The notes beneath the pieces were generated by a model that saw only the letters and a program-made list of their open reading frames with translations, was not told where the DNA came from and searched no databases. A stretch of DNA of 64,000 bases from Arthrobacter citreus (GTDB taxonomy: Bacteria; Actinomycetota; Actinomycetes; Actinomycetales; Micrococcaceae): assembly GCF_009192745.1 (NCBI RefSeq), contig NZ_VTFV01000002.1, positions 868,001 to 932,000 on the forward strand. The letters run 5' to 3'. Position 1 is the stretch's first letter, and each line of letters opens with the position of its first letter. The translations under genes were made by a program, and so were the position numbers. Shown one piece after another: positions 13,200 through 56,427 of the stretch.

Positions 13200-13255
13200 C
13201 GAGATAGCAGAAACTGCCCGTTACAGCGCTGATACGGGCAGTTTCTGTCATCTCG
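13200..13255. repeat. 56-bp dispersed palindromic element, copy A
   Basis: An imperfect 28+28 bp palindrome centred at 13227/13228, starting CGAGAT and ending ATCTCG, with core arms CAGAAACTGCCCGT and ACGGGCAGTTTCTG. It begins 19 nt after the crtEb stop. Related copies of identical length lie at 49560-49615 and 56372-56427. It may act as a terminator of the crt operon. Confidence 0.9.
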
Positions 13256-13280
13256 ATGTGTGGAGCCGGAGTCGGGGAAG

Positions 13281-13320
13281 ACGAAAGCGGCCGGCCCCCG
13301 AAGGGACCGGCCGCTTTCGT
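13281..13320. terminator. hairpin terminator of katA (and possibly crt)
   Basis: A perfect 14-bp stem (ACGAAAGCGGCCGG at 13281-13294, complement at 13307-13320) closes a 12-nt loop. It lies 18 bp beyond the katA stop on the minus strand and after the crt operon on the plus strand. Confidence 0.8.
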
Positions 13321-13338
13321 TAGCGGAAGGGACGCTGA

Positions 13339-14829
13339 TTAGTCAGCAACGCCGACGAACTCAGCCTGCTCGTTGGCCGTGGTCTCGCCGGTGGCGAGGT
13401 TGGCACGCAGCTTGGCGCCGAGGTCGGCGTCAACGTTGGTCCAGTACTGGATTGCAGCTTCGCGGATGTGCGGGCGCTGCACACCGGAGACTGCACCGGT
13501 GATGGTCTCCAGGAAACGGGCCTTGGCGGCGTCGTCGAACACCTCGCGGTACAGCGTGCCGGCCTGGCCGAAGTCGCTGTCCTCGGAGTGCAGGGTCGCC
13601 GCGGAACGCACCAGGGCGCCGTCGTTCTCCCATGTGCCTTCGCCGGCGAGTGCCGGATCCGCCACAGGGCCGCCCAAGGTGTTCGGGGCGTAGACCGGGG
13701 TCTCCGGGGAGTTGAAGGCGAAACGGCCGTAGCCGTCCTGGGAGTAGTTGTTAACCGGAGCCTTCGGTGCGTTGACCGGGAGCTGGTTGTAGTTGGTGCC
13801 AACGCGGTAGCGCTGCGCATCCGGGTAGGAGAAGATGCGGGCCATCAGCATCTTGTCCGGGGAGGCTGCAATGCCCGGAACCAGGTTGGCGGGGGAGAGT
13901 GCCACCTGCTCGATCTGGGCGAAGAAGTTCTCCGGGTTGCGGTTCAGGGTGTGGGTACCCACCTTGATCAGCGGGTAGTCGGCGTGCGGCCAGACCTTGG
14001 TCAGGTCGAACGGGTTGAACCGGTAGTTCTTGGCGTCGTCGTACGGCATGACCTGGACGTGCAGGTCCCAGGACGGGAAGTTGCCGGCAGCGATGTTCTC
14101 GTAGAGGTCGCGGCGGTAGTAGTCGGCGTCCGCGCCGGCGATGCGCTCTGCTTCTGCACCGGTGATCTCGTGGTTGCCCTGGTTCGAGGTGAAGTGGTAC
14201 TTCACCCAGAAGCGCTCACCGGCAGCGTTGATCCACTGGTAGGTGTGCGAGCCGAAGCCGGGCATTTCACGCCAGGAGCGCGGGATGCCGCGGTCGCCCA
14301 TCAGGTACGTGACCTGGTGGGCGGACTCGGGGGACTGGGTCCAGAAGTCCCACTGCATGTCGGCGTCACGCAGGCCGGAACCCGGGAGGCGCTTCTGCGA
14401 GTGGATGAAGTCCGGGAACTTGATGCCGTCGCGGATGAAGAACACCGGGGTGTTGTTTCCGACGATGTCGTAGTTGCCTTCGGAGGTGTAGAAACGCAGT
14501 GCGAAACCGCGGACGTCGCGCCAGGTGTCGGGCGAGCCCATTTCACCGGCAACAGAGGAGAACCGCTGGATGGTTTCGGTGGTGGTGCCGGGCTGGAAAA
14601 CAGCGGCACGCGTGTACTTGGAAACGTCTTCGGTGACGGTGAATTCGCCGAACGCGCCGCCGCCCTTGGCGTGCACGATGCGCTCCGGGATGCGCTCCCG
14701 GTTGAACTGGGCCAGCTTCTCAACCAGGTAACGGTCGTGGAGGACAACCGCGCCGTCAGCTCCGTGGGACAGCGAGTGTGCGTCGCTGGCAACCGGAGTG
14801 CCGGTCTGGGTGGTGGTGAAGTTCGACAT
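13339..14829 (-). CDS. katA: monofunctional heme catalase, small-subunit clade
   Basis: A 496-residue catalase (2 H2O2 to 2 H2O + O2). The active-site signature [17 protein letters not shown] contains catalytic His53; the distal Asn is in VGNNTPVFF (N126); the heme-ligand tyrosine is in [12 protein letters not shown] (about residue 335). Its length fits clade 3 small-subunit catalases. The start at 14829 has AAGAGAG just upstream; an upstream extension of 39 residues would overlap the fur gene end and is rejected. It lies 43 nt behind fur on the same strand, so the pair is probably one peroxide-induced operon. Confidence 0.95.
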
Positions 14830-14872
14830 TCTCTCTCTTTCTTCTTTGGGGTGGAGTGGTAAGTCGATGGGG

Positions 14873-15340
14873 TCAGGAAGTCTTGCCGGCGGTGTCCGGC
14901 TTCGCTGCGCAGTCGGCGCAGAGGCCCTGGTAGAGCACATCCGCAATCTGGATGGTCATGCCGTGGGTGTTGCTGGGGGTCAGGCACGGCGCGTGTCCGA
15001 CGGCGCAGTCAACGTCCTCGATGCGGCCGCAGCCGGAACACATCGCGTGGTGGTGGTTGTCATCAACGCGCGTCTCATAAAGGGCAGGGGAGTGGGGCGG
15101 CTCGATCCGCCGCAGCATCCCCGTTTCCGTGAGGTCGTTGAGGACTACATAAACAGACTGGAGGCTGATGTCCGGAAGGGTGGTCCGCACAATAGCTGCG
15201 ACTTCATCCGCACCTGCGTGGGGTGAATGGTCGACGGCGTCCAGCACGGCCAGGCGCTGCTTGGTGACCCGGCGTCCGTGTGCACGCAGCTGCGCTGACC
15301 ACTTGTCAGTGGCTGCCGCGGAGGCTGCTGTGGAAGTCAT
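14873..15340 (-). CDS. Fur-family peroxide/metal regulator (PerR/FurA-like)
   Basis: A 155-residue Fur-family repressor. The N-terminal winged helix (about 15-85, with [18 protein letters not shown]) is followed by the dimerisation domain with a metal-binding HHHAM (96-100) and two CxxC zinc-site pairs, CSGC (101-104) and CADC (141-144). Co-transcription with katA points to PerR/FurA-type peroxide sensing rather than iron uptake control. The ATG at 15338-15340 is 6 nt from a -10 box TACTGT (minus strand, 15352-15347), so the message is probably leaderless. A 25-bp palindrome covers the promoter. Confidence 0.9.
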
Positions 15341-15355
15341 GGAACTACAGTAGCG

Positions 15356-15380
15356 CTTATTTTGAAGTATTCATAATAAG
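15356..15380. promoter_or_regulatory. Fur/PerR-type box over the fur-katA promoter
   Basis: An AT-rich inverted repeat in an otherwise GC-rich region: arms CTTATTTTGAA (15356-15366) and TTCATAATAAG (15370-15380) are complementary at 10 of 11 positions, with a 3-nt spacer. It overlaps the -35/spacer of the leaderless fur promoter (minus strand, -35-like TTATGA). The size and AT content match FurA/PerR boxes, so autoregulation of the fur-katA operon is likely. Confidence 0.75.
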
Positions 15381-15448
15381 GTCCGCCTAACTGTTGCGGC
15401 TTAGGGTGGTGGTGCGGCCGTGAGTGCAGCCGCGAACCAGGAGGCGAA

Positions 15449-16207
15449 GTGTCCGCAACAGCTGCCCGGCCCCAGATGCGCCGACTGCGCACGGGTGACG
15501 CAGAGGTAGGGCTGCGTTCATCCGGCACACCGGGTCCGGACGTGGTGCTGGTTCACGGAATCGGCGCTTCCTCGCGCTACTTCGAGCCCCTGGCGCACGA
15601 ACTCTCCCGGGACCACAACGTGCATCTGGTGGAGCTGCCCGGCCATGCCGGGATGGAGCGGCCGCAGACAGGCCTCACCATGGCCGGTTACGGAGCGGCC
15701 GTTACCGGAGCCCTGCGCCAGGCCGGTATTGAAGATGCCCTGCTGGCCGGCCACTCCATGGGATGCCAGGTGGTGGTGGAAGCCGCGCTCGCGGATCCCG
15801 GGCTGGTCGCTTCGATGCTGCTCCTTGCCCCTACCGTGAACCGGGCCGAGCGGAATGCTGCCGCCCAGGCATTCCGGCTAGCCCAGGACACCCTGCACGA
15901 AACCCTCGCCGTGAACCGGATCGTCTTCACCGACTATCTGCGCACGGGCCCGCGCTGGTACCTCGGCACCCTCCGCAGCATGCTGGACCACCGGATGGAA
16001 GCGCGGCTGGCGCTCACGCACTGCCCGGTGGCGGTGGTCAGCGGCAGCAGGGATCCGATCGTTCCCCGCTCCTGGCTGCTGCGGCTTGAAGAAGCCAGGG
16101 ACGGCGTCGGGCTCGGCGAGATACCCGCTGCTCCCCACGTGCTGATGTGGAACCGCCCGGAGCAGACCGCTGAGTGGGTGCGCAAACTCCAAAAGGCCGT
16201 GCATTGA
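15449..16207 (+). CDS. alpha/beta hydrolase
   Basis: A 252-residue alpha/beta-hydrolase-fold protein. The oxyanion motif is VLVHGIGASSRYF (about 33-45), the nucleophile is Ser103 in GHSMG, and the other triad members are probably Asp202 (SGSRDPIVP) and His230 (APHVLMW). No signal peptide is visible, so it is likely cytosolic. The GTG start has an excellent AGGAGG 4 nt upstream. Its stop overlaps the TTG start of a second hydrolase gene by 4 nt, so the two are translationally coupled. Substrate unknown. Confidence 0.88.
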   Translation: MSATAARPQMRRLRTGDAEVGLRSSGTPGPDVVLVHGIGASSRYFEPLAHELSRDHNVHLVELPGHAGMERPQTGLTMAGYGAAVTGALRQAGIEDALLAGHSMGCQVVVEAALADPGLVASMLLLAPTVNRAERNAAAQAFRLAQDTLHETLAVNRIVFTDYLRTGPRWYLGTLRSMLDHRMEARLALTHCPVAVVSGSRDPIVPRSWLLRLEEARDGVGLGEIPAAPHVLMWNRPEQTAEWVRKLQKAVH

Positions 16208-16935
16208 CCGGCTCGGCGTCCCGGCCGGACGCCGTTCGCGCAGTGAAGCACCGGCTTCGGCTTGCCGCCGCGTGGGCGGCAGACTATGCCTATGTGGCCC
16301 GCTGGCAGGTCCAGGGTCTGCTGTGCCGCGAAGATCCCTCCGGCTACCTGCACCCTGGCCCCGACGCCGGACATCGGGAGCCGGTGGTGCTGATTCCAGG
16401 GGTCTACGAGGACTGGCGGCTGCTCCGTCCGCTCGCCGAGGCGCTCGCTGCCCGGGGGCACCCGGTCCATACCGTGAAGACTCTGGGCTACAACCGGGGC
16501 AGGATCGATGAAATGGCGCGGCGGGTGGAGGAATACCTGGTTGCTGCGGACCTTCAGGGCGCGGTGATTGTTGCGCACAGCAAGGGAGGGCTGATCGGCA
16601 AGCGGGTCCTGCTGCAAGCCCAGGGCTACCGTATCCGCCGCATGATCGCCGTGAACACACCGTTCTCCGGCTCCCCGTACGCCCGCTACTTCCTGGTTCC
16701 GTCCATCCGCGCGTTCTCCCCGCGCAACGAGCTGCTGCGCGGACTGCAGGCCAGCCTGGAAGCAAACGCCCGGATCACCTCGATCTACGCGGCTTTCGAC
16801 CCGCACATACCCGGCGGCAGCAGGCTCGACGGCGCCCGCAACCTGCAGCTGGAATCAATGGGACATTTCCGCCCGCTGGGCGATCCGGAGCTGCACCGGC
16901 TGGTAGTACGTGAACTGGAGACCGAAGAAGGCTAG
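16204..16935 (+). CDS. lipase-like alpha/beta hydrolase
   Basis: A 243-residue alpha/beta-hydrolase-fold protein resembling triacylglycerol-lipase-type sequences. The oxyanion region is VVLIPGVYEDWRLL (about 61-74), the nucleophile is Ser126 in AHSKGG, and Asp199 and His221 (MGHFRPL) are triad candidates. The TTG start at 16204 overlaps the previous stop (TTGA) and follows AAAAGG at a good distance; a GTG 30 nt upstream is the alternative. The stop codon TAG is the first base triplet of a five-copy 29-bp repeat. Substrate unknown. Confidence 0.8.
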   Translation: MTGSASRPDAVRAVKHRLRLAAAWAADYAYVARWQVQGLLCREDPSGYLHPGPDAGHREPVVLIPGVYEDWRLLRPLAEALAARGHPVHTVKTLGYNRGRIDEMARRVEEYLVAADLQGAVIVAHSKGGLIGKRVLLQAQGYRIRRMIAVNTPFSGSPYARYFLVPSIRAFSPRNELLRGLQASLEANARITSIYAAFDPHIPGGSRLDGARNLQLESMGHFRPLGDPELHRLVVRELETEEG

Positions 16936-17077
16936 CCGGCTCCCTGCGCGAGCGCCTGGCCTAGCTGGCTCCCTGCGCGAGCGCCTGGCCTAGCTTGCTC
17001 CCTGCGCGAGCGCCTGGCCTAGCTTGCTCCCTGTGCGAGCGCCTGCGCTAGCTTGCTCCCTGTGCGAGCGCCTGCTC
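16933..17077. repeat. 29-bp tandem repeat, five copies
   Basis: Five head-to-tail copies start at 16933, 16962, 16991, 17020 and 17049, each beginning TAGC and containing GCTCCCTG and GCGAGCGCCTG, with one to four substitutions between copies. The array fills the whole gap between two convergent genes. Each unit carries CTAG, which reads TAG on both strands: the first gives the lipase stop (16933-16935), the last gives the stop of the minus-strand metallo-hydrolase (17048-17050). The fifth copy is that gene's last coding segment. Confidence 0.95.
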
Positions 17078-17791
17078 GACGGCTGACTGGATGCCGGAGG
17101 TCCACGGGTCCCCATGCCCGGTGAGCACCGTGGCTGCTCCGGTCTCCGCGAGTGCCTCCAGCGAGGACAATGCCGCGGCGCTGTCCGCCGTCGCTGCCCC
17201 GGAAACAATCTGCGGTCCCCGGCCTCCGGTATACGGATTCAGGGTCACAAGGGCGTCCCCGGCAATCAGCGCTCCGCGGTCCGGGAAATGCAGGGCAGTA
17301 TGGCCGGCAGTGTGTCCCGGGGTCGGTATCGTCACCGGTGCGCCGGGCAGTGCCGCGGCAGCTGCCGTATCCAGGTCCAGTACGTCAGCCACGCCTCTGA
17401 CCAGCAGTGCGCCGGCCATCGTCATGGCACCTAGCTGGCGCAGGGACGCCGGGAAACGCAGCGGGTACTGGAAGCGGGCCCGTTCATGGCCGTAGCGGTA
17501 GGGGTGTGCAGCAATGTAGTGGTCGGCCGGGTGGGCCAGGACCGGTGCGCGGAATTCCGTGCGCAGTTTCGCGGCGGTGCCCACATGGTCAAAGTGCCCG
17601 TGTGTCAGCACGATCGCGCTGACGGAGCCCGGCCCGTATCCGAGCGACCGGACAGCCGAGGAGATCGCATGCTGCGAGGCGGGGAGCCCGGTGTCCACGA
17701 TCAGCACCTCGCCGTCGCCCTCCACCAGGTAGGCATTGGTGTAGGCGTGCTCAATCAAGTGGATGCCGTCGGCAACGTTGCGGGTCAGCAT
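17048..17791 (-). CDS. metallo-beta-lactamase-fold hydrolase
   Basis: A 247-residue MBL-fold hydrolase. The metal site THGHFDH (63-69) gives H64, H66, D68 and H69; further ligands are the His in PTPGHTAGH, the Asp in IAGDALV and the His in LTGHGDP near the C-terminus. No signal peptide, so a cytosolic thioesterase or glyoxalase-like role is as likely as lactamase action. The start at 17791 has a strong GGAGG nearby. The last nine codons (ending EQALAQGAS) form the first unit of a tandem repeat that continues past the stop. Confidence 0.85.
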   Translation of the reverse strand: MLTRNVADGIHLIEHAYTNAYLVEGDGEVLIVDTGLPASQHAISSAVRSLGYGPGSVSAIVLTHGHFDHVGTAAKLRTEFRAPVLAHPADHYIAAHPYRYGHERARFQYPLRFPASLRQLGAMTMAGALLVRGVADVLDLDTAAAAALPGAPVTIPTPGHTAGHTALHFPDRGALIAGDALVTLNPYTGGRGPQIVSGAATADSAAALSSLEALAETGAATVLTGHGDPWTSGIQSAVEQALAQGAS

Positions 17792-17939
17792 GGATCCTCC
17801 TGGTGGACAGTGCGGACGTCCCGGGCGAAAGGCCCGGAGGAATATGGTAAGCATGCTTTGCCTCCGCAGGGGACGTTTTGCCCGGACGCACGGCGTAAGG
17901 CGCCGGGGTGCACCGACGGTGCTCGCCTAGACTGCTCTG

Positions 17940-19211
17940 GTGCCCAGACTGCTAGCTGACCTCGCCCCGCTGCGTGAAAGCCGGGATTTCCGCCGGCTCT
18001 GGACCGGAACCGCGCTCTCAGCCGTCGGCACGCAGCTGACACTTGTTGCCGTGAGCCTGGAGGTCTACGAGCTGACGCAGTCCAGCCTCTACGTGGGCAT
18101 GCTGGGTGTGGTGGGGCTGGTGCCGCTGGTCCTGGCCGGACTCTACGGCGGTTCGGTGGTGGACGCATATGACCGCCGGAAAGTAGCCCTGTTCTCCGCT
18201 GCCATTCTCTGGCTGACCACCATCGGCATTGCCGTTCAGGCCTGGCTGGGCCTTGAGAGCGTGTGGCTGCTGTTCGCCCTGGTGGCCGTCAACGCCGGAG
18301 CCGGCGGACTGAACCACCCGGCACGCAGCGCCATCATTCCCCGCCTGGTACGTCCTGAACTGCTCCCCGCCGCCAACGCACTGAGCATGATCACCTTCGG
18401 CATCGCGATGGCAGCGGGTCCGCTGCTGGCCGGGGTGCTGGTAGGGCAGGTGGGCTACGGCTGGACCTACACGATCGACGTCGTCACCTTCACCGCAGCC
18501 ATGTGGGCGCTCTACCGGCTGGACCCCATGCCGCCCATCGGAGAGGTCCAGAAGGCCGGCCTGAAATCCGTCCTGGAGGGATTCACTTTCCTGGGCACGC
18601 GGCCCAACATCCGTATGACGTTCATCGTTGACCTTGCCGCCATGGTGCTGGCCCAGCCGCGTGCGCTGCTGCCCGCCGTCGGGGCGCTGATGCTCGGCGG
18701 CGGAGCCGAAACGGTTGGCATACTGCTGGCGGCCACTGCCGCCGGTTCCTTCCTGGCCGGACTGTTCTCCGGCCCGCTGGGCCTGGTGCGCCGGCAGGGA
18801 CTGGCCGTGATGTGGTCGGTGGTCGCCTGGGGGCTTTCCGTCTCGGCCTTTGGAGTGGTGGTGGTGCTGGCAGGGGAGCACGACGGCGGCGGCGTCTCGC
18901 CGTGGCTCCTTCCGGCCGCGCTGGCCATGGGAGCAGCCGGCATCGCGGACTCGATCAGCGGCGTCTTCCGTTCCACGATCCTCCAGGCGGCGACGCCGGA
19001 CGCGATGCGCGGCAGGCTGCAGGGCGTGTTCGTGGTGGTGGTCGCCGGCGGTCCGCGGCTTGGTGACCTGGTGGCCGGCGTCGACGCGTCCTTCCTGGGC
19101 GAGGGCTGGGCCGCAGTGGCGGGCGGGCTGGCCTGCGCCGCCGCCGTCCTGGTCCTGTCCCGCCTCCAGCCCGGGTTCGCCCGTTACGACGCCCGCCATC
19201 CGACGCCCTAA
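17940..19211 (+). CDS. MFS transporter, EntS-like exporter family
   Basis: A 423-residue major facilitator protein with twelve predicted helices. The N-terminus (LRESRDFRRLWTGTALSAVG) and the loop GSVVDAYDRRKVAL match the MFS_3/EntS exporter group, which includes enterobactin and drug exporters. The GTG at 17940 is 6 nt from -10 TAGACT (17928-17933), a leaderless arrangement. The divergent neighbour is the metallo-hydrolase; a palindrome AAGCATGCTT lies between them at 17848-17857. The substrate cannot be inferred. Confidence 0.85.
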   Translation: MPRLLADLAPLRESRDFRRLWTGTALSAVGTQLTLVAVSLEVYELTQSSLYVGMLGVVGLVPLVLAGLYGGSVVDAYDRRKVALFSAAILWLTTIGIAVQAWLGLESVWLLFALVAVNAGAGGLNHPARSAIIPRLVRPELLPAANALSMITFGIAMAAGPLLAGVLVGQVGYGWTYTIDVVTFTAAMWALYRLDPMPPIGEVQKAGLKSVLEGFTFLGTRPNIRMTFIVDLAAMVLAQPRALLPAVGALMLGGGAETVGILLAATAAGSFLAGLFSGPLGLVRRQGLAVMWSVVAWGLSVSAFGVVVVLAGEHDGGGVSPWLLPAALAMGAAGIADSISGVFRSTILQAATPDAMRGRLQGVFVVVVAGGPRLGDLVAGVDASFLGEGWAAVAGGLACAAAVLVLSRLQPGFARYDARHPTP

Positions 19212-19352
19212 ACACCCAATCCGGCCCCGGCCGGCCATGGAACAGCACAGCGGGCAGATACGTTAACGCTTAGGAAAAGTACCGCGGAAGGTTTTGGACC
19301 TGCGCTCCTGATGGGAGGGCGGGGCCTTCCGCCCAGGAAGGATCGTGTACAC

Positions 19353-20222
19353 GTGCACCGACATTTCAACGGTTTGAAGACAGCAGCCCTGTTCGGGGTG
19401 CTCTTCGCTGTGCTGCTGGGTATCGGCGGCCTGCTGGCCAGCGGCACGGGCAGTTCCTCGTTCATCTGGATTTTCCTGTTTATCGGGCTCGCCACCACCG
19501 CCTACAGCTACTGGAACAGCGACAAGCTGGCCATTCGCGCCATGCACGCGGTCCCCGTCACGGAGGCGCAGGCCCCGGAAATGTACCGGATCGTCCGTGA
19601 ACTCTCGGCCAAGGCCAACCAGCCGATGCCCCGGCTCTACGTCTCGCCCACCATGGCGCCGAACGCGTTCGCCACGGGCCGCAACCCGCAGAACGCTGCG
19701 GTGTGCTGCACCCAGGGGATCCTGGCGCTGCTGAACGAACGTGAGCTGCGCGGGGTGCTGGGCCATGAACTGATGCATGTCTACAACCGGGACATCCTCA
19801 CCTCCTCGGTTGCCGCCGCGATTGCCGGCGTCATCACCTCGCTCGGCCAGTTCCTGCTGTTCTTCGGCGGCGACCGCCGCAACCAGAACCCGCTGGCCAT
19901 GATCGCCATGGCGGTCCTAGCCCCGCTGGCCGCTTCCCTGATCCAGATGGCCATTGGACGAACCCGGGAGTACGACGCCGATGAAGACGGCGCAACCCTG
20001 ACCGATGATCCGCTGGCGCTGGCTTCGGCCCTGCGGAAGCTGGAAACCGGAACCCAGCAGGCTCCGCTGCCCAACACGGACCAGAAACTGGTCAACACCT
20101 CCCACCTGATGATTGCCAACCCGTTCCGCAACGGCGTGCGCGGCCTGCTGGCCACCCACCCGCCAATGGCCGACCGGATCCGGCGCCTGGAAAACATGGC
20201 AGGCCGTCCGCTCGGTTCCTAA
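19353..20222 (+). CDS. htpX: HtpX-type membrane zinc metalloprotease
   Basis: A 289-residue M48 membrane protease for quality control of membrane proteins. The zinc site is HELMH (138-142); the third ligand Glu is in the YDADEDGA segment downstream. Two N-terminal helices (about 8-29 and 35-52) and hydrophobic segments at about 152-198 give the usual HtpX topology. The GTG at 19353 (start [10 protein letters not shown]) is preferred over an ATG 42 nt earlier because homologues begin there and AGGAAGG lies 11 nt before it. The histidine phosphatase gene follows after 33 nt. Confidence 0.92.
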
Positions 20223-20255
20223 GCGCAGCGGCACCAACACAGAGAGCGAGCACAC

Positions 20256-20939: not shown

Positions 20940-20955
20940 GCCAAGCGGAAACAAG

Positions 20956-21001
20956 ACAACGACGGCGGCGCTCCCGGATTGGGGTGCGCCGCCGTCGTTG
21001 T
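20956..21001. terminator. bidirectional terminator between phosphatase gene and yajQ
   Basis: A perfect 16-bp stem (20956-20971 with 20986-21001) closes a 14-nt loop. It is 16 nt after the phosphatase stop and 19 nt beyond the yajQ 3' end. Confidence 0.8.
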
Positions 21002-21020
21002 GTGCGGACGGATCGAAGGT

Positions 21021-22280: not shown

Positions 22281-22288
22281 CCGAAGAG

Positions 22289-22436: not shown

Positions 22437-22444
22437 TTCTAAGC

Positions 22445-48031: not shown

Positions 48032-48033
48032 CC

Positions 48034-48465
48034 ATGTCCATTGCACTCAGCGAACTGCAGGCCGGACAGGAAATCGGCCGGACCACCCTGGAAATCAGCC
48101 GTGCGGACCTGGTCCGTTACGCCGGTGCCTCGGGGGATTTCAATCCGATCCACTGGAACGAACGTTTTGCGCGCTCCGTGGACCTGCCCGGCGTCATCGC
48201 GCACGGCATGTTCACCATGGGTGCGGCCGTGCAGCTGGTCACCGACTGGATCGGAGATCCGGGAGCTGTCCTGGATTACCAGACGCGTTTCACCCGCCCC
48301 GTCACCGTAGAAGACGTCGAGGGCGTCCCGGGCGCCGTCGTCGAAGTCACCGGCACGGTCGGTGCCGTCGACGCTGACAACTCCACGGCCCGCATTGACC
48401 TGGCAGTGACTTTCAACGGCCAGAAAGTGCTGGTCAAGGCACAGGCGGTTGTGCGGGTCTGGTGA
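48034..48465 (+). CDS. hadB: MaoC-type dehydratase, HadB-type catalytic subunit
   Basis: A 143-residue hot-dog-fold dehydratase with the hydratase-2 motif SGDFNPIHWNE, supplying the catalytic Asp and His, and GVIAHGMFTMG. It dehydrates beta-hydroxyacyl thioesters as a heterodimer with the preceding HadA-like protein. The stop overlaps the GTG of murB by 4 nt. Confidence 0.88.
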   Translation: MSIALSELQAGQEIGRTTLEISRADLVRYAGASGDFNPIHWNERFARSVDLPGVIAHGMFTMGAAVQLVTDWIGDPGAVLDYQTRFTRPVTVEDVEGVPGAVVEVTGTVGAVDADNSTARIDLAVTFNGQKVLVKAQAVVRVW

Positions 48466-49544
48466 GCGCTCTGACCTCGATGCAGCTTGCGTCCCTGACG
48501 ACATCCCGCGTGGGCGGACCGGCATACCGCTACCTGAACGCCGAAACCCCCGATGAACTGATCTCGATGGTCCGCGCGGCAGACGAGGCGTCGGAGCCCC
48601 TGCTGATCGTGGGCGGCGGTTCGAACCTGCTCATTTCCGACGACGGCTTCGACGGCGCGGTGGTGCACGTTGGCCACCGCGGCATCGAGTTCCGCGAAGG
48701 CGACGGCGGCACCGCCGTCGTAGACGTGCAGGCAGGCCACCCGTGGGATGACCTGGTGGCAACAACCGTGGCCGAAGGCTATTCGGGCCTTGAGGCGCTC
48801 TCCGGTATTCCCGGGCTGGCAGGTGCGACGCCGGTACAGAACGTGGGTGCCTACGGTGCGGACGTCTCGCACAGCATCGTCTCGGTACTCACCTGGGACC
48901 GTCAGGAACGCACCCGGCGCCGCTTCGGCGCCGCAGAGCTGGAGTTCGGCTACCGGGATTCGCTGCTCAAGCGCACCACGGTGAACGGCTCGCCGCGCTA
49001 CGTTGTCCTGAGCGTTGAATTCGCCGTGGCCAAGGGAACCGCCAGCGCTCCGGTGCGTTACGCCGAGCTCGCCCGCGCGCTGAACGTTGAAGTGGGCGGG
49101 AGCGCGGACATCGCCGATGTGCGGCGGGAAGTCCTGCGGCTGCGTGCAGGCAAGGGCATGGTCCTGGACGCGTCGGATCCGGACACCTACAGCACCGGGT
49201 CCTTCTTCACGAACCCCATCCTGCCCGCACCGGAGGCTGACCGGCTGCCCGCGGACGCACCGCGGTACCCGGTGGCCGAGCCCGGCATGGTCAAACTCAG
49301 CGCCGCCTGGCTGATCGAACACGCAGGGTTCGGCAAGGGTTTCGGCTTGCCGGGTACCGCCGGGGCGGATCTCGCCGGAGGCCGGGCATCACTCTCCGCC
49401 AAACACACCCTGGCGGTAACCAACCGCGGCAGTGCCACCGCCGAAGACCTGCTGTCCATTGCCCGCGCAGTGGCCGACGGCGTCGAACAGCGCTTCGGCA
49501 TCCGGCTGCATCCGGAACCGCTGCTGATCAACTGCGCGCTGTAG
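48462..49544 (+). CDS. murB: UDP-N-acetylenolpyruvoylglucosamine reductase
   Basis: A 360-residue FAD/NADPH enzyme that makes UDP-MurNAc for peptidoglycan. FAD-binding segments are SRVGGPA, VGGGSNLLI and LSGIPGLAGATPVQNVGAYG; the proton-donor Ser is in STGSFFTNP and the C-terminal Glu in RLHPEPLLI. The start is GTG, overlapping hadB. Last gene of the operon; a copy of the 56-bp palindrome begins 16 nt after the stop. Confidence 0.95.
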   Translation: MSALTSMQLASLTTSRVGGPAYRYLNAETPDELISMVRAADEASEPLLIVGGGSNLLISDDGFDGAVVHVGHRGIEFREGDGGTAVVDVQAGHPWDDLVATTVAEGYSGLEALSGIPGLAGATPVQNVGAYGADVSHSIVSVLTWDRQERTRRRFGAAELEFGYRDSLLKRTTVNGSPRYVVLSVEFAVAKGTASAPVRYAELARALNVEVGGSADIADVRREVLRLRAGKGMVLDASDPDTYSTGSFFTNPILPAPEADRLPADAPRYPVAEPGMVKLSAAWLIEHAGFGKGFGLPGTAGADLAGGRASLSAKHTLAVTNRGSATAEDLLSIARAVADGVEQRFGIRLHPEPLLINCAL

Positions 49545-49559
49545 CACCCGCCCAACTTT

Positions 49560-49615
49560 CGAGATTGCAGAAACTGCCCGTTTGGAGCTCCAAACGGGCA
49601 GTTTCTGTCATGTCG
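49560..49615. repeat. 56-bp dispersed palindromic element, copy B
   Basis: 28+28 bp palindrome centred at 49587/49588 with core arms CAGAAACTGCCCGT and ACGGGCAGTTTCTG and the perfectly self-complementary tip TTGGAG/CTCCAA. Same length, ends and core as the copies at 13200 and 56372, but a different tip sequence. Confidence 0.9.
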
Positions 49616-49642
49616 GGGTGCACAGCCAGGATTGTGCTTAGG

Positions 49643-49661
49643 GATTCTAATACTTAGAATC
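49643..49661 (+). promoter_or_regulatory. palindromic operator over the marR promoter
   Basis: A perfect 8-bp inverted repeat GATTCTAA (49643-49650) and TTAGAATC (49654-49661) with a 3-nt spacer covers the -10 box TAGAAT (49655-49660). The ATG follows 8 nt later. AT-rich and symmetrical, it is a strong candidate for the MarR autoregulatory site. Confidence 0.75.
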
Positions 49662-49668
49662 TTTAACT

Positions 49669-50151
49669 ATGAGTTTTGATGAGTCCCTCCAGCTGTCGCA
49701 GGAACTGCGCCCCATGCTGCCCCGGCTCTACCACCTGAGCCGCCGCCGTATCCCGGGATGGGACCTGACGGCTTCCCAATCCTCGGTCATGAGCACCCTG
49801 GTGGACCGCGGCCCGCTCCGAATGGGTGAACTTGCCGCCCTGGAAGGCGTCCAGCTGCCCTCCGCCACTTCCGTGGTCAACGGACTGGTCAAACTCGGCC
49901 TGGTGGAACGCCGGGCAGACCCAGCCGACCGGCGCGCCGTCGTTATCGACCTCACCGCCAAGGGCCGCAGCCAGGTGGACGAGCTCGTGGACCGCCGAAA
50001 CCACTCCTTCGCCCTGCTGCTCGAGCGGCTTCCGGAACAGGACCGCAGGCTCCTGCAGGACGCCATCCCTGCAGTAGTTCGGCTTCTGTCCCTGGGACCG
50101 GACACGCCGGAAGCGGACCAGCCCGGCAACCGTCCCTCAGCGGACGACTAA
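49669..50151 (+). CDS. MarR family transcriptional regulator
   Basis: A 160-residue winged-helix regulator: HTH at about 48-70 (MGELAALEGVQLPSATSVVN) and wing with RRADPADRRAVVIDLT (about 83-98), matching the MarR Asp-Arg pattern. An MFS exporter gene follows after 29 nt, the usual MarR-efflux arrangement, so ligand-responsive control of that exporter through the upstream palindrome is likely. Confidence 0.9.
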   Translation: MSFDESLQLSQELRPMLPRLYHLSRRRIPGWDLTASQSSVMSTLVDRGPLRMGELAALEGVQLPSATSVVNGLVKLGLVERRADPADRRAVVIDLTAKGRSQVDELVDRRNHSFALLLERLPEQDRRLLQDAIPAVVRLLSLGPDTPEADQPGNRPSADD

Positions 50152-50180
50152 AGACTTCTTACCCGAAAGGCACCACAGAC

Positions 50181-51422
50181 ATGAGCAGAGCTGCAGCCGT
50201 GCGGGAGGCTCCCGCACATCCACGGCTCGCGGACGCACTGCGCGGACAGCCGAAAACAGTGTGGGTCACGGCCTTTGCCGCTGTGATCGCGTTTATGGGT
50301 ATTGGCCTGGTGGACCCGATCCTCAACACCATCACCGAGGAACTCGGCGCTTCCCCCACGGAAACCACCCTGCTGTTCGGTTCCTACCTGGGCGTCCAGG
50401 TCCTTGCCATGCTGCTGACCGGAGTGATGTCCTACCGCTTCGGTGCCAAGCGCACCCTGGTGACGGGGCTGGTGCTCATTGTGCTCGCCGCGGGGGCGTG
50501 CGCGCTGGCGAACAGCATTGAGACGCTCGTGTGGCTGAGGGCCGTCTGGGGACTGGGCAACGCCTTCTTCATCGCCACGGCACTCTCGGTCATCGTTGGT
50601 GCCGCAGCCGGCGGGCAGGCCGGAGCCATCCTGCTGTATGAGGCCGCACTGGGCGTGGGCCTCGCCGTCGGGCCGCTCCTGGGCGCCGCGCTGGGCACCA
50701 TCTCCTGGCGGGGGCCGTTCGCCGGCACCGCTGTGCTCATGGCTGTTGGGGTGATCCTGTGCCTGGCCATGCTGGCCAAGGACAAAGACAAATCCGCGCG
50801 GCAGAAGATCCGGCTCGTGGATCCCCTCCTGGCACTGCGGAACCGGAACCTGCTGATGACATCCCTCGGTTCGGCGTTCTACACCGCTGCGTTCTTCTCG
50901 ATCATTGCCTGGTCGCCGTTTGTGCTGGAAGAAGGAGCCTTCTTCGTTGGCTTTGTCTTCTTCGGCTGGGGCCTGTGCGTGGCGGTTTCATCAGTGGTGC
51001 TGGCACCGAAGGTGGCCGGCTGGTTCGGTGAGCGCGGGGGAGCGGTGCTCACGGTGCTCATCTACGCGCTGGTGCTGCTGGGCATGGCTGCCGGAAACAA
51101 GACCGTGGTGGTGATCGGGATCGTTGTCTCAGGCATCTTCTCCGGCATCCTGAACACCCTCTTCACCGGCACCGCGATGAGCTCGGGTACGGGACCACGG
51201 GCGGTGAACAGCGCCGGCTACAACTTCCTGCGCTGGTTCGGCGGAGCTGTCTCGGCCATCCTTGTGGGCCACATCGCGCAGTGGCTGGGCATGCGCGCAC
51301 CGTTCTGGGTCGGCGCCATCTGCTGCGCCGTAGCTGCGGGACTGCTGCTCCTGCGCAGCGGTGCCGGCGATCCGGATCCGCACGACGTGCCGGACGCCGC
51401 AGCCGCCGTCGGCGCCGACTAG
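50181..51422 (+). CDS. MFS efflux transporter
   Basis: A 413-residue transporter with twelve predicted helices, DHA1-like. The N-terminal half has FMGIGLVDPILNTI in helix 1 and SYRFGAKRTLVTG as the loop-2/3 signature. GAAAGG precedes the ATG. It is paired with the MarR gene in what is probably a two-gene operon. Similar proteins export drugs or siderophores; substrate unknown. Confidence 0.87.
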   Translation: MSRAAAVREAPAHPRLADALRGQPKTVWVTAFAAVIAFMGIGLVDPILNTITEELGASPTETTLLFGSYLGVQVLAMLLTGVMSYRFGAKRTLVTGLVLIVLAAGACALANSIETLVWLRAVWGLGNAFFIATALSVIVGAAAGGQAGAILLYEAALGVGLAVGPLLGAALGTISWRGPFAGTAVLMAVGVILCLAMLAKDKDKSARQKIRLVDPLLALRNRNLLMTSLGSAFYTAAFFSIIAWSPFVLEEGAFFVGFVFFGWGLCVAVSSVVLAPKVAGWFGERGGAVLTVLIYALVLLGMAAGNKTVVVIGIVVSGIFSGILNTLFTGTAMSSGTGPRAVNSAGYNFLRWFGGAVSAILVGHIAQWLGMRAPFWVGAICCAVAAGLLLLRSGAGDPDPHDVPDAAAAVGAD

Positions 51423-51457
51423 CGCGCCGCCGTCGGGCGTCCCTTCCCCTAAACCGA

Positions 51458-51513
51458 CGAGAGGCCACTTACGGCTCTTTCCAGGCGTGAAAAGAGCCGT
51501 AAGTGGCCTCTCG
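51458..51513. repeat. 56-bp palindromic element, copy D (divergent sequence)
   Basis: Perfect 23-bp arms (51458-51480 and 51491-51513) around a 10-nt loop, total 56 bp, starting CGAGA and ending TCTCG like copies A-C but with an unrelated interior (GGCCACTTACGGCTC). It lies 35 nt after the MFS stop and 17 nt beyond the 3' end of convergent asd, and probably terminates both. Confidence 0.85.
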
Positions 51514-51530
51514 AAGCTGGCGGTGAATTT

Positions 51531-52673
51531 CTAGAGGTTGCCGGTCGCGATGCGCAGCATCCGGCGCAGCGGCTCGGCGGCACCCCAGAGCAGCTGGTCG
51601 CCGATGGTGAACGCGCTGATGTACTCCGGGCCCATTTCAAGCTTGCGGATACGGCCCACCGGAATGTCCAGCGTTCCGGTCACAGCCACCGGGGTGAGCT
51701 GTTCCATGGTGGCTTCCTTGGTGTTCGGAACCACCTTGGCCCACTGGTTGTCCGCGTCGATGATCCGTTCAATCTCGGCGACGGAAAGGTCTTCGGTGAG
51801 CTTGAGGGTCAGGGCCTGGGAGTGTGAGCGCATGGCGCCGATGCGGACGCAGAGTCCGTCGAAGGGAATCCTGCCGGAATCGGAGCCGAGGCCGAGGATC
51901 TTGTTGGTCTCCGCGCCGCCCTTCCACTCTTCCTTGGACTGCCCGTTGCCCAGGTCGGCGTCGATCCACGGGATCACGGAACCGGCCAGCGGAACGCCGA
52001 ACTGGGAAGAATCCATGGACGGATCCTTCTGCTGGGCCAGCACTGCGCGGTCGATTTCAAGGATGGCCGACGCCGGATCGGCGAGGTTCGCTGCCACGGC
52101 GGAGTTCAGGGCACCGAACTGGTTGAGCAGCTCACGCATGTGCCGGGCACCGCCGCCGGACGCTGCCTGGTAGGTCATGGAAGTGCCCCACTCCACGAGG
52201 CCGTTGCGGAACAGTCCGCCCAGGCCCATGAGCATGCAGGAGACGGTGCAGTTGCCGCCCACGAAGTTCTTCACGCCGCGGGCCAGCCCGGCATCGATGA
52301 CGTCCCGGTTGACCGGATCCAGCACGATGATGGCGCTGTCATCCATGCGCAGGGTGGAGGCGGCATCGATCCACAGGCCGTCCCAGCCGGCGTCGCGCAG
52401 CTTCGGGTAAACCTCGGAGGTGTAGTCACCGCCCTGGGTCGTAACAATAATCGGCAGCTTGGCCAGCGTCTGGACGTCGTAGGCATCCTGCAGGGGGCCC
52501 GCACCTTCAGCGAAGGACGGCGCTGCGCCGCCCGCGTTGGAGGTGGAGAAGAAGACGGGGTTGATCAGGTCGAAATCGCCTTCCTCCTGCATGCGCTGCA
52601 TAAGGACGGAACCGACCATGCCCCGCCAGCCGACGAAGCCCGCGGTAGGGACAGAAGAAGCTGCTGAAGTCAT
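51531..52673 (-). CDS. asd: aspartate-semialdehyde dehydrogenase, enterobacterial type
   Basis: A 380-residue NADP-dependent enzyme of the aspartate pathway (lysine, threonine, methionine, DAP). The start [19 protein letters not shown] is that of the E. coli-like Asd class, unlike the shorter Asd of many actinobacteria; the catalytic Cys is C142 in GGNCTVSCM. On the minus strand -10 TAGACT (52685-52680) ends 6 nt before the ATG, inside the 24-nt gap after folA, giving the gene its own leaderless promoter. Confidence 0.94.
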
Positions 52674-52697
52674 GCCTTCAGTCTAGGGCAGGGGTTC

Positions 52698-53360
52698 TCA
52701 GCCGTCCTGCTCGGTTACGTTCCGGTTCCGGGTCCACAGCGCGAACCTGTACTGCAGTCCGTTCGCGGACGTGTACCAGTCCTGTGCCGGGCTGACGCCG
52801 CTGAACGTCCAGTCTGCCCCCAGATGAGGGGCATAGCTGTCGCCCTCAGTCTCGGTGTTGATCACCGTGACCACCGCAACATCCGCCAGGGGCTCGGCCT
52901 CGGCATATACCTGGGATCCGCCTACGATCCAGATTCGGCTGCTGCCTTCACTTCCTTCAGCGGCTTCCAGCGCAGCTTCCAGGGACGGCACGACGACGGC
53001 GCCCGTCGGTTCCAGCTCGGCGGCCAGTCCCTCACGGGAGGAAATCACAATGTTCTTCCGCCCCGGCAGCGGCCGGAACGCTTCCGGGAAGGACTCCCAG
53101 GTGCGCCGGCCCATGATGACGGGGTGTCCCAGTGTGCTGGCCTTGAAATGCGCGAGGTCTTCAGGCAGGTGCCAGGGCATGCCGCCGTCCTTGCCGATGA
53201 CGCCGTCGGTGGTCTGCGCCCAGATCATGCCAACGAGCGGCACGCCGGTGTTCCCGTAGCCCCGGGCTGCCAGGGCGTCGTTGAGTTCCAGCCCCTCTTC
53301 GCCGGCGCGGCCGACGGGGTAGTAGCGGGTTGAATCTGCGAACCTGTTCGATTCAGTCAA
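52698..53360 (-). CDS. folA: dihydrofolate reductase with N-terminal extension
   Basis: A 220-residue protein. From about residue 50 it is a normal DHFR: MIWAQTTDGVIGKDGGMPWHLPED-like start region with the substrate Asp/Glu in HLPEDLAHF, GRRTWESF and IVGGSQVY. The first about 48 residues (MTESNRFADSTRYYPVGRAG...) are an extension. The TTG at 53360 is preceded by AAAGGG and lies 13 nt after the thyA stop; a start at the internal VGMIWAQ would give a standard-length DHFR. It regenerates the folate that ThyA oxidises. Confidence 0.85.
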   Translation of the reverse strand: MTESNRFADSTRYYPVGRAGEEGLELNDALAARGYGNTGVPLVGMIWAQTTDGVIGKDGGMPWHLPEDLAHFKASTLGHPVIMGRRTWESFPEAFRPLPGRKNIVISSREGLAAELEPTGAVVVPSLEAALEAAEGSEGSSRIWIVGGSQVYAEAEPLADVAVVTVINTETEGDSYAPHLGADWTFSGVSPAQDWYTSANGLQYRFALWTRNRNVTEQDG

Positions 53361-53373
53361 GACGGGTGCCCTT

Positions 53374-54180
53374 TCACACGGCGATAGGTGCCTTGATGCC
53401 GGGGTGGTGCTGGTAATCCAGGACCTCGAAGTCATCAAGCTCATAGTCGAAGATGCTGGCAGGCTTCCGCCTCAGCCGCAGTTTAGGATACGGGAACGGT
53501 GAGCGGGACAGCTGTTCCGTTACCTGGTCCAGATGGTTGTCGTAGATGTGCACGTCGCCGCCGGTCCAGACGAACTCGCCCGGCTCCAGGCCCACCTGCT
53601 GCGCCACCATCAGGGTGAGCAGCGCGTAGGAGGCAATGTTGAACGGCACGCCCAGGAAGGTGTCCGCAGAACGCTGGTAGAGCTGGCAGGAGAGCTTGCC
53701 GTCCGCCACGTAGAACTGGAACATGGCGTGGCACGGAGGCAGCGCCATGTTCTCCACTTCTGCCGGGTTCCAGGCAGTGACTATGTGCCGCCGTGAATCC
53801 GGGTTGTTCTTCAGGCCGTCGACCAGCTTCGCGATCTGGTCGATCTGCCCGCCGTCCGGCGTGGGCCAGGAGCGCCACTGGACGCCGTAGACCGGCCCCA
53901 GCTCGCCGTCGTCGTCCGCCCATTCATCCCAGATGGTGACGCCGCGTTCCTGCAGCCAGCGGACATTCGAGTCTCCGCGCAGGAACCACAGCAGTTCCAG
54001 CGCCACGGACTTGAAGTGCACGCGCTTGGTGGTGATCAGCGGGAAGGACTCGCTGAGGTCGAAGCGCATCTGGCGGCCAAAGACACTGCGCGTACCGGTG
54101 CCGGTGCGGTCGGACTTCGGGGTGCCGTGCGCCAGGATGTCGCGCAGCAGGTCTTCGTACGGAGTGGGAATCGTGGTCAC
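53374..54180 (-). CDS. thyA: thymidylate synthase
   Basis: A 268-residue enzyme that methylates dUMP to dTMP with methylene-THF. Catalytic C150 is in [23 protein letters not shown] and [17 protein letters not shown] bind dUMP phosphate and base. The GTG start overlaps the gntR stop by 4 nt, yet -10 TAGACT (minus, 54192-54187) ends 6 nt before it, so it also has a probable leaderless promoter inside gntR. thyA-folA pairing is common. Confidence 0.96.
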
Positions 54181-54587
54181 GGCTCCAGTCTAGTGTCGAA
54201 GCGTCTCCGGGACAGCGAATCCGCCAGGAGCGAGAGCACAAGGGCGTCGGGAAGCCCGTGCCGGTGCGCAGTGGAGACAAGGTGGCCGACGGCGGCGCCC
54301 ACCTCGGCTGGGACACTGCCCGGGCCACTCGTAGGCGTGGCAGCACGCTGCGCTATGGCCGTGCCCCGGCGGCGCAGCGCGGTGACGGTTCCCTCGGCTT
54401 CGAGTTCCTTGTAGGCCCGGGCGACCGTACCCGGGGCCACGCCAAGGTCAGCGGCCAGCATGCGGATGGTGGGCAGCCTCTCACCCGGTGACAGGACTCC
54501 TGCTGTTGCCAGGGCGCTCACCTGTGAGCGGATCTGTTCGTACGGAGGAACAGGGGAGGCCAGATCCACCCGGATCTGTGCGCTCAT
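54177..54587 (-). CDS. GntR-family regulator, YtrA-like
   Basis: A 136-residue GntR regulator: the winged HTH (about 10-75) has [20 protein letters not shown] and [20 protein letters not shown]; the C-terminus is a short helical arm rather than a FadR or UbiC effector domain, the mark of YtrA-type proteins. Its start overlaps the membrane-protein stop by 4 nt and its stop overlaps thyA. YtrA regulators usually control an adjacent transporter, here presumably the membrane protein. Confidence 0.87.
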
Positions 54588-56302
54588 GCCCGCTGCGCCG
54601 GGGGAAGCTCTGCCTGCTCGGCGTAGCGCGGATCATCCGGGAAGTGGGACGGACCAAACTGGCGCCAGGCAACCACGACTGCGGCGAGCAGCAGAAGGGT
54701 GCTCGCCGCGCTGGCCTGCTGGACCAGCGGCGCCAGCCAGTCCAGGGGAGGTTCGAGAGGGATGTCGGGGTTATAGGTGCTGGCCCAGCGGCTCTGGCGG
54801 GAGACATCGGTGAGCACCAGCCCGGCAGCGGCCAGGCACGTGGCGGTGCTCGTCCGGGCCAGACGGAACAGCGCCACCCTTCGAAGCCTGAGGTCAGTGT
54901 CCCGGTCACCGGACAATGCAGGCCTGGCAAGGACCTTACGGGATACCAGGTCGGTCGCCAGCGGCAGGAGCAGGACCAAAAGGGCAGAGCTGAGGGCAAA
55001 CCGCCAATCGAAAAAGGGCTCGGGGATTATTGCACCGCCCGCCGAAGGGGCATCCTGGTGGCTGCGGATGCTGGCTTCAGCCTCGGCGTAGCCTAGGGCC
55101 GCGCGGTCAATTGACGGGCCGAGCAGTGCTGCACCCAGAAGGACGCCGAGGGTCAGCGCTGCCCCTGCCGTCCCGGTCCACATCAGCCAGCGGGGCGTTC
55201 GGAGGAACTCTGCGGAGTCCGCGTCCATCGGCTCCGCGGCGGCCAGAGTCCTGCGGATGCGACGGGTATGGTTGTACTCCGCCGCGGCGCACAGTGCCGT
55301 GAAGGTTACCGCCGCCGCAGCCAGGGCGAGGACCGCGGCAACACGGTGCTGCATCGCCAGGGCGAAGACGATGATTCCGACGAAGCCTGCAGCTGCCGGT
55401 CCGGCAATGGTCAGGCGCAGGCTGGCGGCCATGGACTTCACCCCGAGCGGGGACAGTGCGGGGGCGTCCGGGCTGCCGGAACCGGACGGTTCCGGCAGGG
55501 GGACCCGGGGCGCCCGCGCCAGGAGGGTCAGGATGCCGCCGAAGACGATCCAGAGGGATACATACCGCAGTGCTTCACCGCCCGCGCTGAGTCCGGGTGG
55601 ATCCGGGTAGTTCGAGAGGAAGACGCCCCCGGACGAGGCCAGCATGATCATGACGCCGGCCGCGGTGCGCATGACCCGGTGGGCTGAGGCGAGGCGGAGC
55701 ACGGCGTCGGCTTCCGGTGCCGTACCCGGAACGACGGGCCGCACGGAGATGAGCTTGAGGACCCCGGCGACCGCGGCCACGGTGAGCAGCAGCCAGGGAG
55801 CCCATCCCGTCAGGAGGTGCTGAGTGGAAGCGGAGCCGGGGTCGCGGGCCAGGGTGGTCCCCAGGATGAGCAGGTTATAGGCCAGGAAAAAACAGGCCAC
55901 CCAGGTCATGTAGCGGGGGATCAGCCCGCGGACTCCACGGTGCTGCAGCCGGGCAGTGCGGACGGTTCCCCGCGGGCGGGGCCAGGTCAGTTCACCAACG
56001 GCCAGCACAGCCAGGGAGAAGACTGTGGGAGCCCCCAGCTGTACCAGGGCGGAGGAAACGGCATAGTGTCCGTCCCACCAGAGTTCGCCGCCCGTTTCCC
56101 GGAGCACGGGCTGGAGCACTCCCGGGAGCCACAGAGCCGTGCCCAGGGCCACTATACCGATGCGGCGGGCGTACTTTTGGGCAGCTTCCGTCACGGTCCG
56201 CGTTTCACTTCCCGGCCTGGGCCGGACGGTAAGCACCACAAAAGCGACGACGGCGGCGCAGAAAAGGATGGTGCCAAGAGCCGATATTGCGGCCGCAGCC
56301 AT
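54584..56302 (-). CDS. unknown polytopic membrane protein
   Basis: A 572-residue protein with about twelve or thirteen hydrophobic helices spread over its length and no recognised domain or enzymatic motif. Polar loops of note are a Pro/Ser/Gly-rich one at about 270-285 and one at about 415-435 (before PEPFFDWRFAL). It is the first gene of a tight minus-strand series with gntR, thyA, folA and asd. It could be a transporter or a sensor; no function is assigned. Confidence 0.75.
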   Translation of the reverse strand: MAAAAISALGTILFCAAVVAFVVLTVRPRPGSETRTVTEAAQKYARRIGIVALGTALWLPGVLQPVLRETGGELWWDGHYAVSSALVQLGAPTVFSLAVLAVGELTWPRPRGTVRTARLQHRGVRGLIPRYMTWVACFFLAYNLLILGTTLARDPGSASTQHLLTGWAPWLLLTVAAVAGVLKLISVRPVVPGTAPEADAVLRLASAHRVMRTAAGVMIMLASSGGVFLSNYPDPPGLSAGGEALRYVSLWIVFGGILTLLARAPRVPLPEPSGSGSPDAPALSPLGVKSMAASLRLTIAGPAAAGFVGIIVFALAMQHRVAAVLALAAAAVTFTALCAAAEYNHTRRIRRTLAAAEPMDADSAEFLRTPRWLMWTGTAGAALTLGVLLGAALLGPSIDRAALGYAEAEASIRSHQDAPSAGGAIIPEPFFDWRFALSSALLVLLLPLATDLVSRKVLARPALSGDRDTDLRLRRVALFRLARTSTATCLAAAGLVLTDVSRQSRWASTYNPDIPLEPPLDWLAPLVQQASAASTLLLLAAVVVAWRQFGPSHFPDDPRYAEQAELPPAQRA

Positions 56303-56371
56303 AGGATCCCCCGGGACTCTGGATGTCAGATTGTGCCAAGTCTCTGGTACATAACTCCGTCCGTCAATCCC

Positions 56372-56427
56372 CGAGATGACAGAAACTGCCCGTATGAGCG
56401 CTCATACGGGCAGTTTCTGTGATCTCG
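56372..56427. repeat. 56-bp dispersed palindromic element, copy C
   Basis: 28+28 bp palindrome centred at 56399/56400, tip ATGAGC/GCTCAT, core arms as in copies A and B. It starts 5 nt beyond the ferritin gene's 3' end (minus strand) and lies upstream of the membrane-protein gene. Confidence 0.9.

Follow-up and report, generated by a model that had tools for sequence, protein, structure and literature searches.

Four palindromes of the same length in the window

The DNA analysed here is a 64,000-nt stretch of the Arthrobacter citreus genome (the window, in whose positions the coordinates of this section are given), and its subject is a palindrome of 56 bp that recurs between genes. A first-pass annotation of the window had described three copies, all of which were confirmed. 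A fourth, at 51458–51513, has the length and the CGAGA/TCTCG ends of the others and a different core. The four copies are as follows.

13200..13255, strand not applicable: 56-bp palindrome of subtype A (CAGAAACTGCCCGT), 19 nt past a UbiA-type prenyltransferase gene (12293–13180, plus strand) that is convergent with a catalase gene
49560..49615, strand not applicable: 56-bp palindrome of subtype A, 15 nt past murB (48462–49544, plus strand), with a MarR-family gene next
51458..51513, strand not applicable: 56-bp palindrome of subtype C (GGCCACTTACGGCTC), between convergent major facilitator superfamily (MFS; 50181–51422, plus strand) and semialdehyde dehydrogenase (51531–52673, minus strand) genes
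56372..56427, strand not applicable: 56-bp palindrome of subtype A, 5 nt past the end of a ferritin gene (56433–56957, minus strand), which lies to its right

The neighbours were identified by Pfam matches (UbiA-type prenyltransferase, catalase, MurB, MarR, MFS, semialdehyde dehydrogenase, ferritin); the protein encoded at 54587–56302 has no Pfam match. The distances of 5–19 nt first reported behind crtEb, murB and ferritin are correct, and Pfam agrees on MurB and ferritin, the name crtEb for the prenyltransferase being that annotation's own. Identical CGAGAT ends were also claimed, which does not hold for the 49560 copy, as its right end reads ATGTCG. Likewise, the 12-bp tips are not fully self-complementary in the 13200 copy, where two of the six tip pairs are unpaired (4 of 28 pairs over the whole copy).

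Folded as RNA, the copies at 13200, 49560, 51458 and 56372 are predicted to reach −42.1, −42.5, −47.2 and −50.3 kcal/mol. The z-scores against shuffled sequences are −9.1, −8.9 and −12.0 for the 13200, 49560 and 56372 copies, and lie between −8.9 and −12.0 for all four. The half word of the palindrome occurs six times in the window (expected 0.06), always within the three A pairs. An Rfam scan of the window at gathering scores returned three tRNAs only, and the elements match no curated family.

To the right of the 13200 element and before the convergent catalase gene, the letters at 13283–13321 spell a GC hairpin with TTTCGTT after it (GAAAGCGGCCGG...CCGGCCGCTTTCGTT); judged from these letters, the catalase gene thus seems to have a terminator of its own.

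A dispersed family in the genome

The genome (3.55 Mb in 13 contigs) was searched with a 56-letter pattern of which 20 letters are fixed, allowing at most 3 mismatches. In this and the other genome-pattern searches (half word, family, genus, order, control motif) individual places were read among the matches listed. The pattern matched 72 places and its reversed form none, which excludes chance. The proposal that the family has spread in this genome, rather than being limited to three copies, is therefore borne out. Stretches around about 70 places were fetched and filtered for ends with at most 3 mismatches and at least 70% pairing; 66 copies passed and three unrelated palindromes were dropped. 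The remaining 63 copies, on which the following is based, overlap the 72 places, although the two sets are not identical.

Of these copies 57 are 56 nt long, five 57 nt and one 55 nt. According to the arm, 40 belong to subtype A (CAGAAACTGC), 15 to C (CAGTTACGGC) and five to B (CAGAAAGTGC); two are AB and one is C/intermediate. The palindrome extends outward more loosely as CAT...ATG (58–82% per letter), with C-rich left and G-rich right flanks. The mean minimum free energy is about −40 kcal/mol in every subtype (range −23.7 to −50.3). Many imperfect copies carry tips found in other copies; the tips follow a narrow grammar, and we draw no inference from this.

The elements lie at gene ends

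Genes were called by our own codon-usage script, which is not a published caller. No copy lies inside a called gene: the neighbouring genes are convergent at 35 copies, tandem at 22 and divergent at 6, and one of these 6 copies (C3:261218) overlaps the end of an MFS gene that the caller missed. In the tandem gaps 21 of 22 copies start at most 32 nt from the stop codon, one of them with an 8-nt overlap, and the other lies 78 nt away. Of the convergent gaps 25 of 35 leave at most 60 nt besides the element. Another perfect 10-bp hairpin is absent, in the stretch examined, from 34 of 35 convergent and all 22 tandem gaps; as far as tested, the element is thus the only strong hairpin at these gene ends. 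Among 64 copies in the named relatives' loci, 28 are convergent and 30 tandem. This set, drawn from loci among the matches listed, excludes nine loci from outside Arthrobacter as well as duplicates and copies close to the edge of a locus.

For an unbiased count we took 280 contiguous kb from each of three relatives. These hold 33 elements, 31 of them of 56 nt, divided into 16 convergent, 16 tandem and one divergent. Thirty of the 33 lie at most 40 nt from a stop codon, as compared to 11139 of 109799 possible placements (10.1%; p = 6e-27), so that the predicted excess after stop codons is found.

The same counts bear on a reading in which the palindrome acts as DNA, either as a cruciform or as a chromosome or nucleoid-protein site that is avoided in genes and tolerated mainly between gene ends. 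The conserved end box, mismatches without strand bias (see below) and the repetition of the box at about 19-bp steps in another genus, among the matches listed, would suit such a site. However, of the 432 gaps of at least 56 nt in these stretches (79 convergent, 222 tandem, 131 divergent), the divergent ones hold a single element, and a pure DNA site is not expected to hug stop codons so closely. We consider this reading very unlikely.

Pairing is kept while the sequence varies

Aligned with one another, 56 distinct copies have 91.8% of their cells paired and give a covariation score of 0.345, as opposed to 0.112 with shuffled partners (reached in 0 of 500 shuffles) and at most 0.085 with the structure slid along the sequence. 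This agrees with the initial view that the hairpin is conserved while its letters change. Pairs 1, 3, 9, 10 and 17 are invariant; positions 7–8 and the tip vary most, and the invariant letters of the end box stand beside a hypervariable 2-nt spacer.

Compensatory change was also seen between orthologous copies. Six of 48 comparisons were set aside for more than 14 differences (five subtype differences and one diverged copy) and one more later, leaving 41 comparisons of the same subtype. They contain 16 double changes that replace one Watson-Crick pair with a second one, with 34 single changes that break and 29 that restore a pair. The comparisons share species and are not independent, and orthologous copies were counted repeatedly where their letters differ, as also in the 64-copy set above and the 133-copy set below. 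With one mixed-subtype pair included the counts are 20, 35 and 29; this pair supplied four of the 20 double changes, three of them of the transversion type. An excess of transversion-type double changes was dropped as a candidate feature, since 9 of 20 became 6 of 16 (p = 0.12) once that pair was removed. In Bacillus cereus terminators AU-GC switches make up 79% of all switches, and 89.5% of the inferable paths pass through GU (PMC5381666; this and the other papers cited by PMC number are represented here by parts of their text). The 10 transition-type changes among our 16 are not clearly different from this 79% (p = 0.12).

Distribution among relatives

By MurB, the nearest of 29 genus genomes are A. 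koreensis DSM 16760 (G032) and then A. gandavensis SR10 (G058). A pattern without the core (56 nt, each end marked by CGAGA-N3-CA, at most one mismatch; control at most 1) gave 63 places in our genome, 81 in G032, 66 in G058, 54 in Arthrobacter sp. Edens01 (G157), 51 in G149, 19 in G160 and 11 in G131. The other 22 of the 29 genomes have 0–5 places, with none in 13; these include three near relatives in the MurB tree, G154, G155 and G100, with 1, 1 and 0 copies. The MurB tree groups G149 with these three (support 91/84), and a longer DNA tree leaves its placement unsettled; the low counts of the three may therefore reflect loss, or the high counts elsewhere gain. With a narrower pattern 23 genomes in a sample of 149 from the family match, those outside the genus with at most two places each among the matches listed. 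Subtypes A and B predominate in our genome and C in G149, among the matches listed.

Orthologous sites keep an element and may change its subtype

A region of 280 kb was mapped across six genomes and contains 17 sites, 14 of which hold elements in at least two species. At seven of the 14 one subtype is retained, in some cases with identical mismatches, which points to vertical descent at those sites. At the other seven the subtype differs between species, A or B against C. The 13200 site carries A in our genome, G032 and G058 and C in G157 and G149; the 56372 site carries A in our genome, G058 and G149 and C in G157 (G032 was not mapped); and C3:813527 carries A in four species and C in G149. 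Among 133 distinct copies none combines an A arm with a C arm, while six are A/B (these arms are one letter apart) and eight have an intermediate arm. As half-and-half A/C copies are missing, the exchange of subtypes looks mostly wholesale.

Some relatives have ordinary terminators where others have the element, in line with the terminator-like placement first suggested. At the murB site the element is present in our genome and G157; G058 has GAAACCGCCCG...CGGGCGGTTTCGTT, an ordinary terminator, in G154, G155 and G100 a T run comes after a GC hairpin, and in G032 nothing was recognised. In G149 a C element lies in another gap, the one in which murB faces the semialdehyde dehydrogenase gene. 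The 51458 site holds an element in G157 and ordinary hairpins in G032, G058 and G154. The 700 bp to the left of the 51458 copy (50758–51457) are 93% identical to G157 and 86% to G032, in a window that is as a whole closer to G032 (88.4%) than to G157 (84.3%). Judged from these identities, local recombination that included the flanks is likely here.

Such sites raise the question of whether the elements are plain intrinsic terminators, the genus re-using a good hairpin that descends vertically and changes by compensatory point mutation, with no mobility or conversion. Tips are common to many orthologous copies in three or four species, and in some cases so are mismatches. The relatives' ordinary terminators have a similar core (GAAACCGCCCG...CGGGCGGTTTC), and the share of transition-type double changes is not clearly different from that of B. 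cereus (PMC5381666). At C3:746045, moreover, an A copy faces a C-like ortholog with an in-between arm (CAGATACGGC) and just nine differences. Point mutation would not readily account, however, for a 56-nt length and an outer CGAGA box that are fixed in more than 50 copies per genome and nearly absent from G154, G155 and G100, nor for subtypes that differ at half of the shared sites without any A/C intermediate made of two halves. A preference for G-U is missing as well. This explanation is in our opinion unlikely.

How the family may spread

The first-pass annotation had proposed to look for a transposase associated with repetitive extragenic palindromes (REPs), a RAYT. The RAYT/Y1 transposase domain PF01797 was found in 0 of 29 genus genomes (the control was found in 5 of 14; other transposase families were not searched), and RAYT-driven REPs were rejected on this test. 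REP tags within 10 nt of an end are rare in the 63 copies: GTAG occurs 0 times on the left and once on the right, CGTC three times on the left and once on the right, and the complements once each. AT is present at both ends in 19 of 63 copies; as AT is its own complement, it is ambiguous as a target duplication. Sites without an element exist in G157, and filled and empty sites differ beyond the element itself, so that clean insertion boundaries were not obtained.

These data can be set against a model of inserted elements resembling miniature inverted-repeat transposable elements or REPs, which a transposase or recombinase reading CGAGA-N3-CA would move in trans with a preference for gene ends, termination being a by-product. 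Amplification is lineage-specific (51–81 copies in five species, 0–1 in three near relatives), G157 has element-free sites, the end-box letters are invariant beside the hypervariable spacer, and the same box is present on other palindromes of the order. The lack of PF01797, of a clear target duplication and of filled and empty sites that differ by the element alone speaks against insertion, and we regard the model as possible but doubtful.

A proposed two-way hairpin renewed in place

We favour, with a probability of roughly 0.57, the reading that the elements form a dispersed REP-like family whose members act as two-way hairpins at gene ends and are renewed in place. The unit is a near-perfect palindrome, usually of 56 bp and mostly 5–30 nt past a stop codon, so placed that the transcripts of the preceding gene and of a convergent gene would both end in a hairpin with a stem of some 25 bp. 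In A and B the inner GC stem leads into an arm rich in pyrimidines and containing U (TTTCTG...), which has its mirror image on the other strand. RNA polymerase may stop at the hairpin from either side, or the 3′ end may be trimmed back to it and protected. Sites stay occupied as species diverge, and species differ in the discrete subtype found there; the replacement would be explained most simply by recombination (gene conversion) with another copy or by repeated insertion at places of the same type. On the present data the element is best read as working most like a two-way gene-end hairpin and behaving like a REP family.

Several observations weigh against this reading. Sense-strand mismatches in 52 tandem copies (22 from our genome and 30 from relatives) comprise 39 G-U and 28 A-C (p = 0.22), or 28 and 26 when the two central pairs are excluded (pairs 1–26), whereas in B. 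cereus terminators the changes pass mainly through GU (PMC5381666). No bias would be expected of a hairpin that serves both strands, and the missing G-U bias thus weakens the case for selection on RNA without excluding it. Selection on RNA only was rejected by the same test. A U-tail is not seen: in the 12 nt that follow each of 30 tandem copies, T accounts for 52 of 360 letters (14%). T makes up 5.9 of 10 letters of the 3′ arm in A and B, inside the stem only, and in C as few as 3.3 of 10. Five of our 63 copies remain divergent, as do five of the relatives' 64, of which one more lies in a called gene. The in-between arm at C3:746045 makes gradual change possible there. G154 has no element in the mapped region, and at 13 sites read in it four perfect hairpins of at least 9 bp and two imperfect ones (by eye) were found; at the seven others no hairpin was read, so a terminator is not needed at every site. 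Finally, no mechanism of spread was found with PF01797 and the insertion-boundary tests.

Gene-end hairpins are commonly regarded as signals that change slowly and independently of one another; in this genome dozens of them form one sequence family of fixed length. If replacement in place is borne out, bacterial 3′ ends can undergo concerted evolution in the manner of a repeat family. The contrast between high-copy (51–81) and near-zero (0–1) relatives offers a ready system for finding the responsible factor, and the elements are candidate compact two-way terminators for high-GC hosts.

Relation to known repeats and terminators

The GTAG and CGTC REP super-families are short, dispersed extragenic palindromes that usually lie behind genes, where the neighbouring open reading frames (ORFs) are convergent or co-directional; some families are species-specific, and the CGTC kind is reported without a dedicated transposase (Di Nocera et al., 2013; PMC3733652). 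The Arthrobacter element is likewise dispersed, extragenic, of high copy number and located behind genes. In contrast to these REPs of 20–40 bp (PMC3733652), it measures 56 bp, lacks the GTAG/CGTC tag and PF01797, and has CGAGA paired at both ends. The main text of PMC3733652 does not contain the word stem "Actinobacteri". Related palindromes also form a population within one genome in the case of REPINs with RAYTs (PMC3116915).

A REPIN consists of two REPs in opposite orientation. Our element, unlike it, is a single symmetric palindrome and has no RAYT.

With bidirectional intrinsic terminators (PMC1852404, PMC5381666) the element shares a hairpin between convergent genes, A-rich and T-rich mirrored arms in A and B, and compensatory changes. 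It differs in a stem that runs past the U-containing arm to CGAGA with no U-tail after it, and in being a high-copy family of fixed length with same-site subtype differences and no G-U preference. As it has neither the REP tag and transposase nor the terminator U-tail, we file it as neither, close to both. Thus, the observation behind the earlier label of a REP/terminator family is confirmed and the interpretation partly supported: the dispersed family and the gene-end hairpin hold, and a RAYT and a standard U-tailed terminator are not supported.

In Neisseria and Pasteurellaceae terminators are built from DNA uptake signal sequences (PMC1852404), and there, too, a short word is repeated in inverted pairs behind genes. 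The Arthrobacter half word, unlike these, is not abundant alone. With at most 2 mismatches it has 84 and 72 matches genome-wide, compared to 18 and 20 for the control, among the matches listed. DNA uptake words were rejected because the half word is not abundant singly and all six window matches lie in pairs.

Literature searches by words and by sequence strings found no published description of the element among the matches listed; one may exist in subscription papers. Papers on Arthrobacter terminators by Term-seq were likewise absent from the matches listed. In the accessible text of RepRanger (PMC12306157) Arthrobacter livingstonensis is present only as a row of counts.

Related palindromes beyond the genus

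Among 297 genomes of the order, 84 have matches to CGAGA-N3-CA palindromes of variable length; 20 genomes from seven families have at least four matches (up to 64), and the reversed control has at most 2, overlapping matches being counted separately. A motif with reordered letters has at least one match in 132 of the 297 genomes, with a maximum of 4, as has its own reversed control. Single matches therefore mean nothing, and only high counts do. The lengths differ between lineages, among the matches listed:

57–58 nt: G373
57 nt (by elimination): G059
about 60 nt: G438
67 nt: G325, G360, G370
68–69 nt: G254, G424, G329

The palindromes of 67–69 nt look like nested units of 19–20 nt, each starting with CGAG, among the matches listed. 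In 16 loci from four such genomes, seven elements are tandem (two of these are one element), four convergent and one divergent, three are undecided at the edge, and the last is a poorly paired match in a gene; at eight of the 16 a called stop is no more than 60 nt away. The gene contexts in stretches from outside the genus were called with an Arthrobacter codon model and are unreliable, above all in G329.

The elements could be one branch of order-wide gene-end palindromes of Actinobacteria that share a paired CGAGA-N3-CA box, with a length and interior set by lineage (56, about 57, 60 or 67–69 bp). A trans-acting factor that reads the box would copy or convert whole elements in place, and gene-end signals would evolve in concert, switching sequence while keeping position, length and hairpin. 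We put this forward tentatively and think it rather improbable as a whole.

Single matches in two Cryobacterium genomes, Subtercola and Microbacterium pair at 24–27 of 28 positions, and those in Pseudonocardia, Luteimicrobium and a metagenome-assembled genome at 19–23 of 28. The one in Cryobacterium sp. PH31-L1 (locus L187, 7168–7223) is a 56-bp CGAGA palindrome with an A5/T5 mirror (GCAAAAAGTGCCCC), 13 nt past a long ORF that we take to be clpC. G325, G360 and G370, which belong to a genus of another family, have 67-bp palindromes with CGAG units of about 19 nt and 19–29 matches per genome, among the matches listed. Nested palindromes in loci L294, L295 and L296 (G254, G424) repeat the word CGAGATCGCAC at a 19-bp step.

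Other repeats in the window

At 16932–17076 the window contains a tandem array of about five copies of a 29-bp unit (CTAGCTTGCTCCCTGCGCGAGCGCCTGGC-like). The array lies at the stop of a plus-strand ORF (16174–16935) and extends into the end of a minus-strand ORF (17048–17854).

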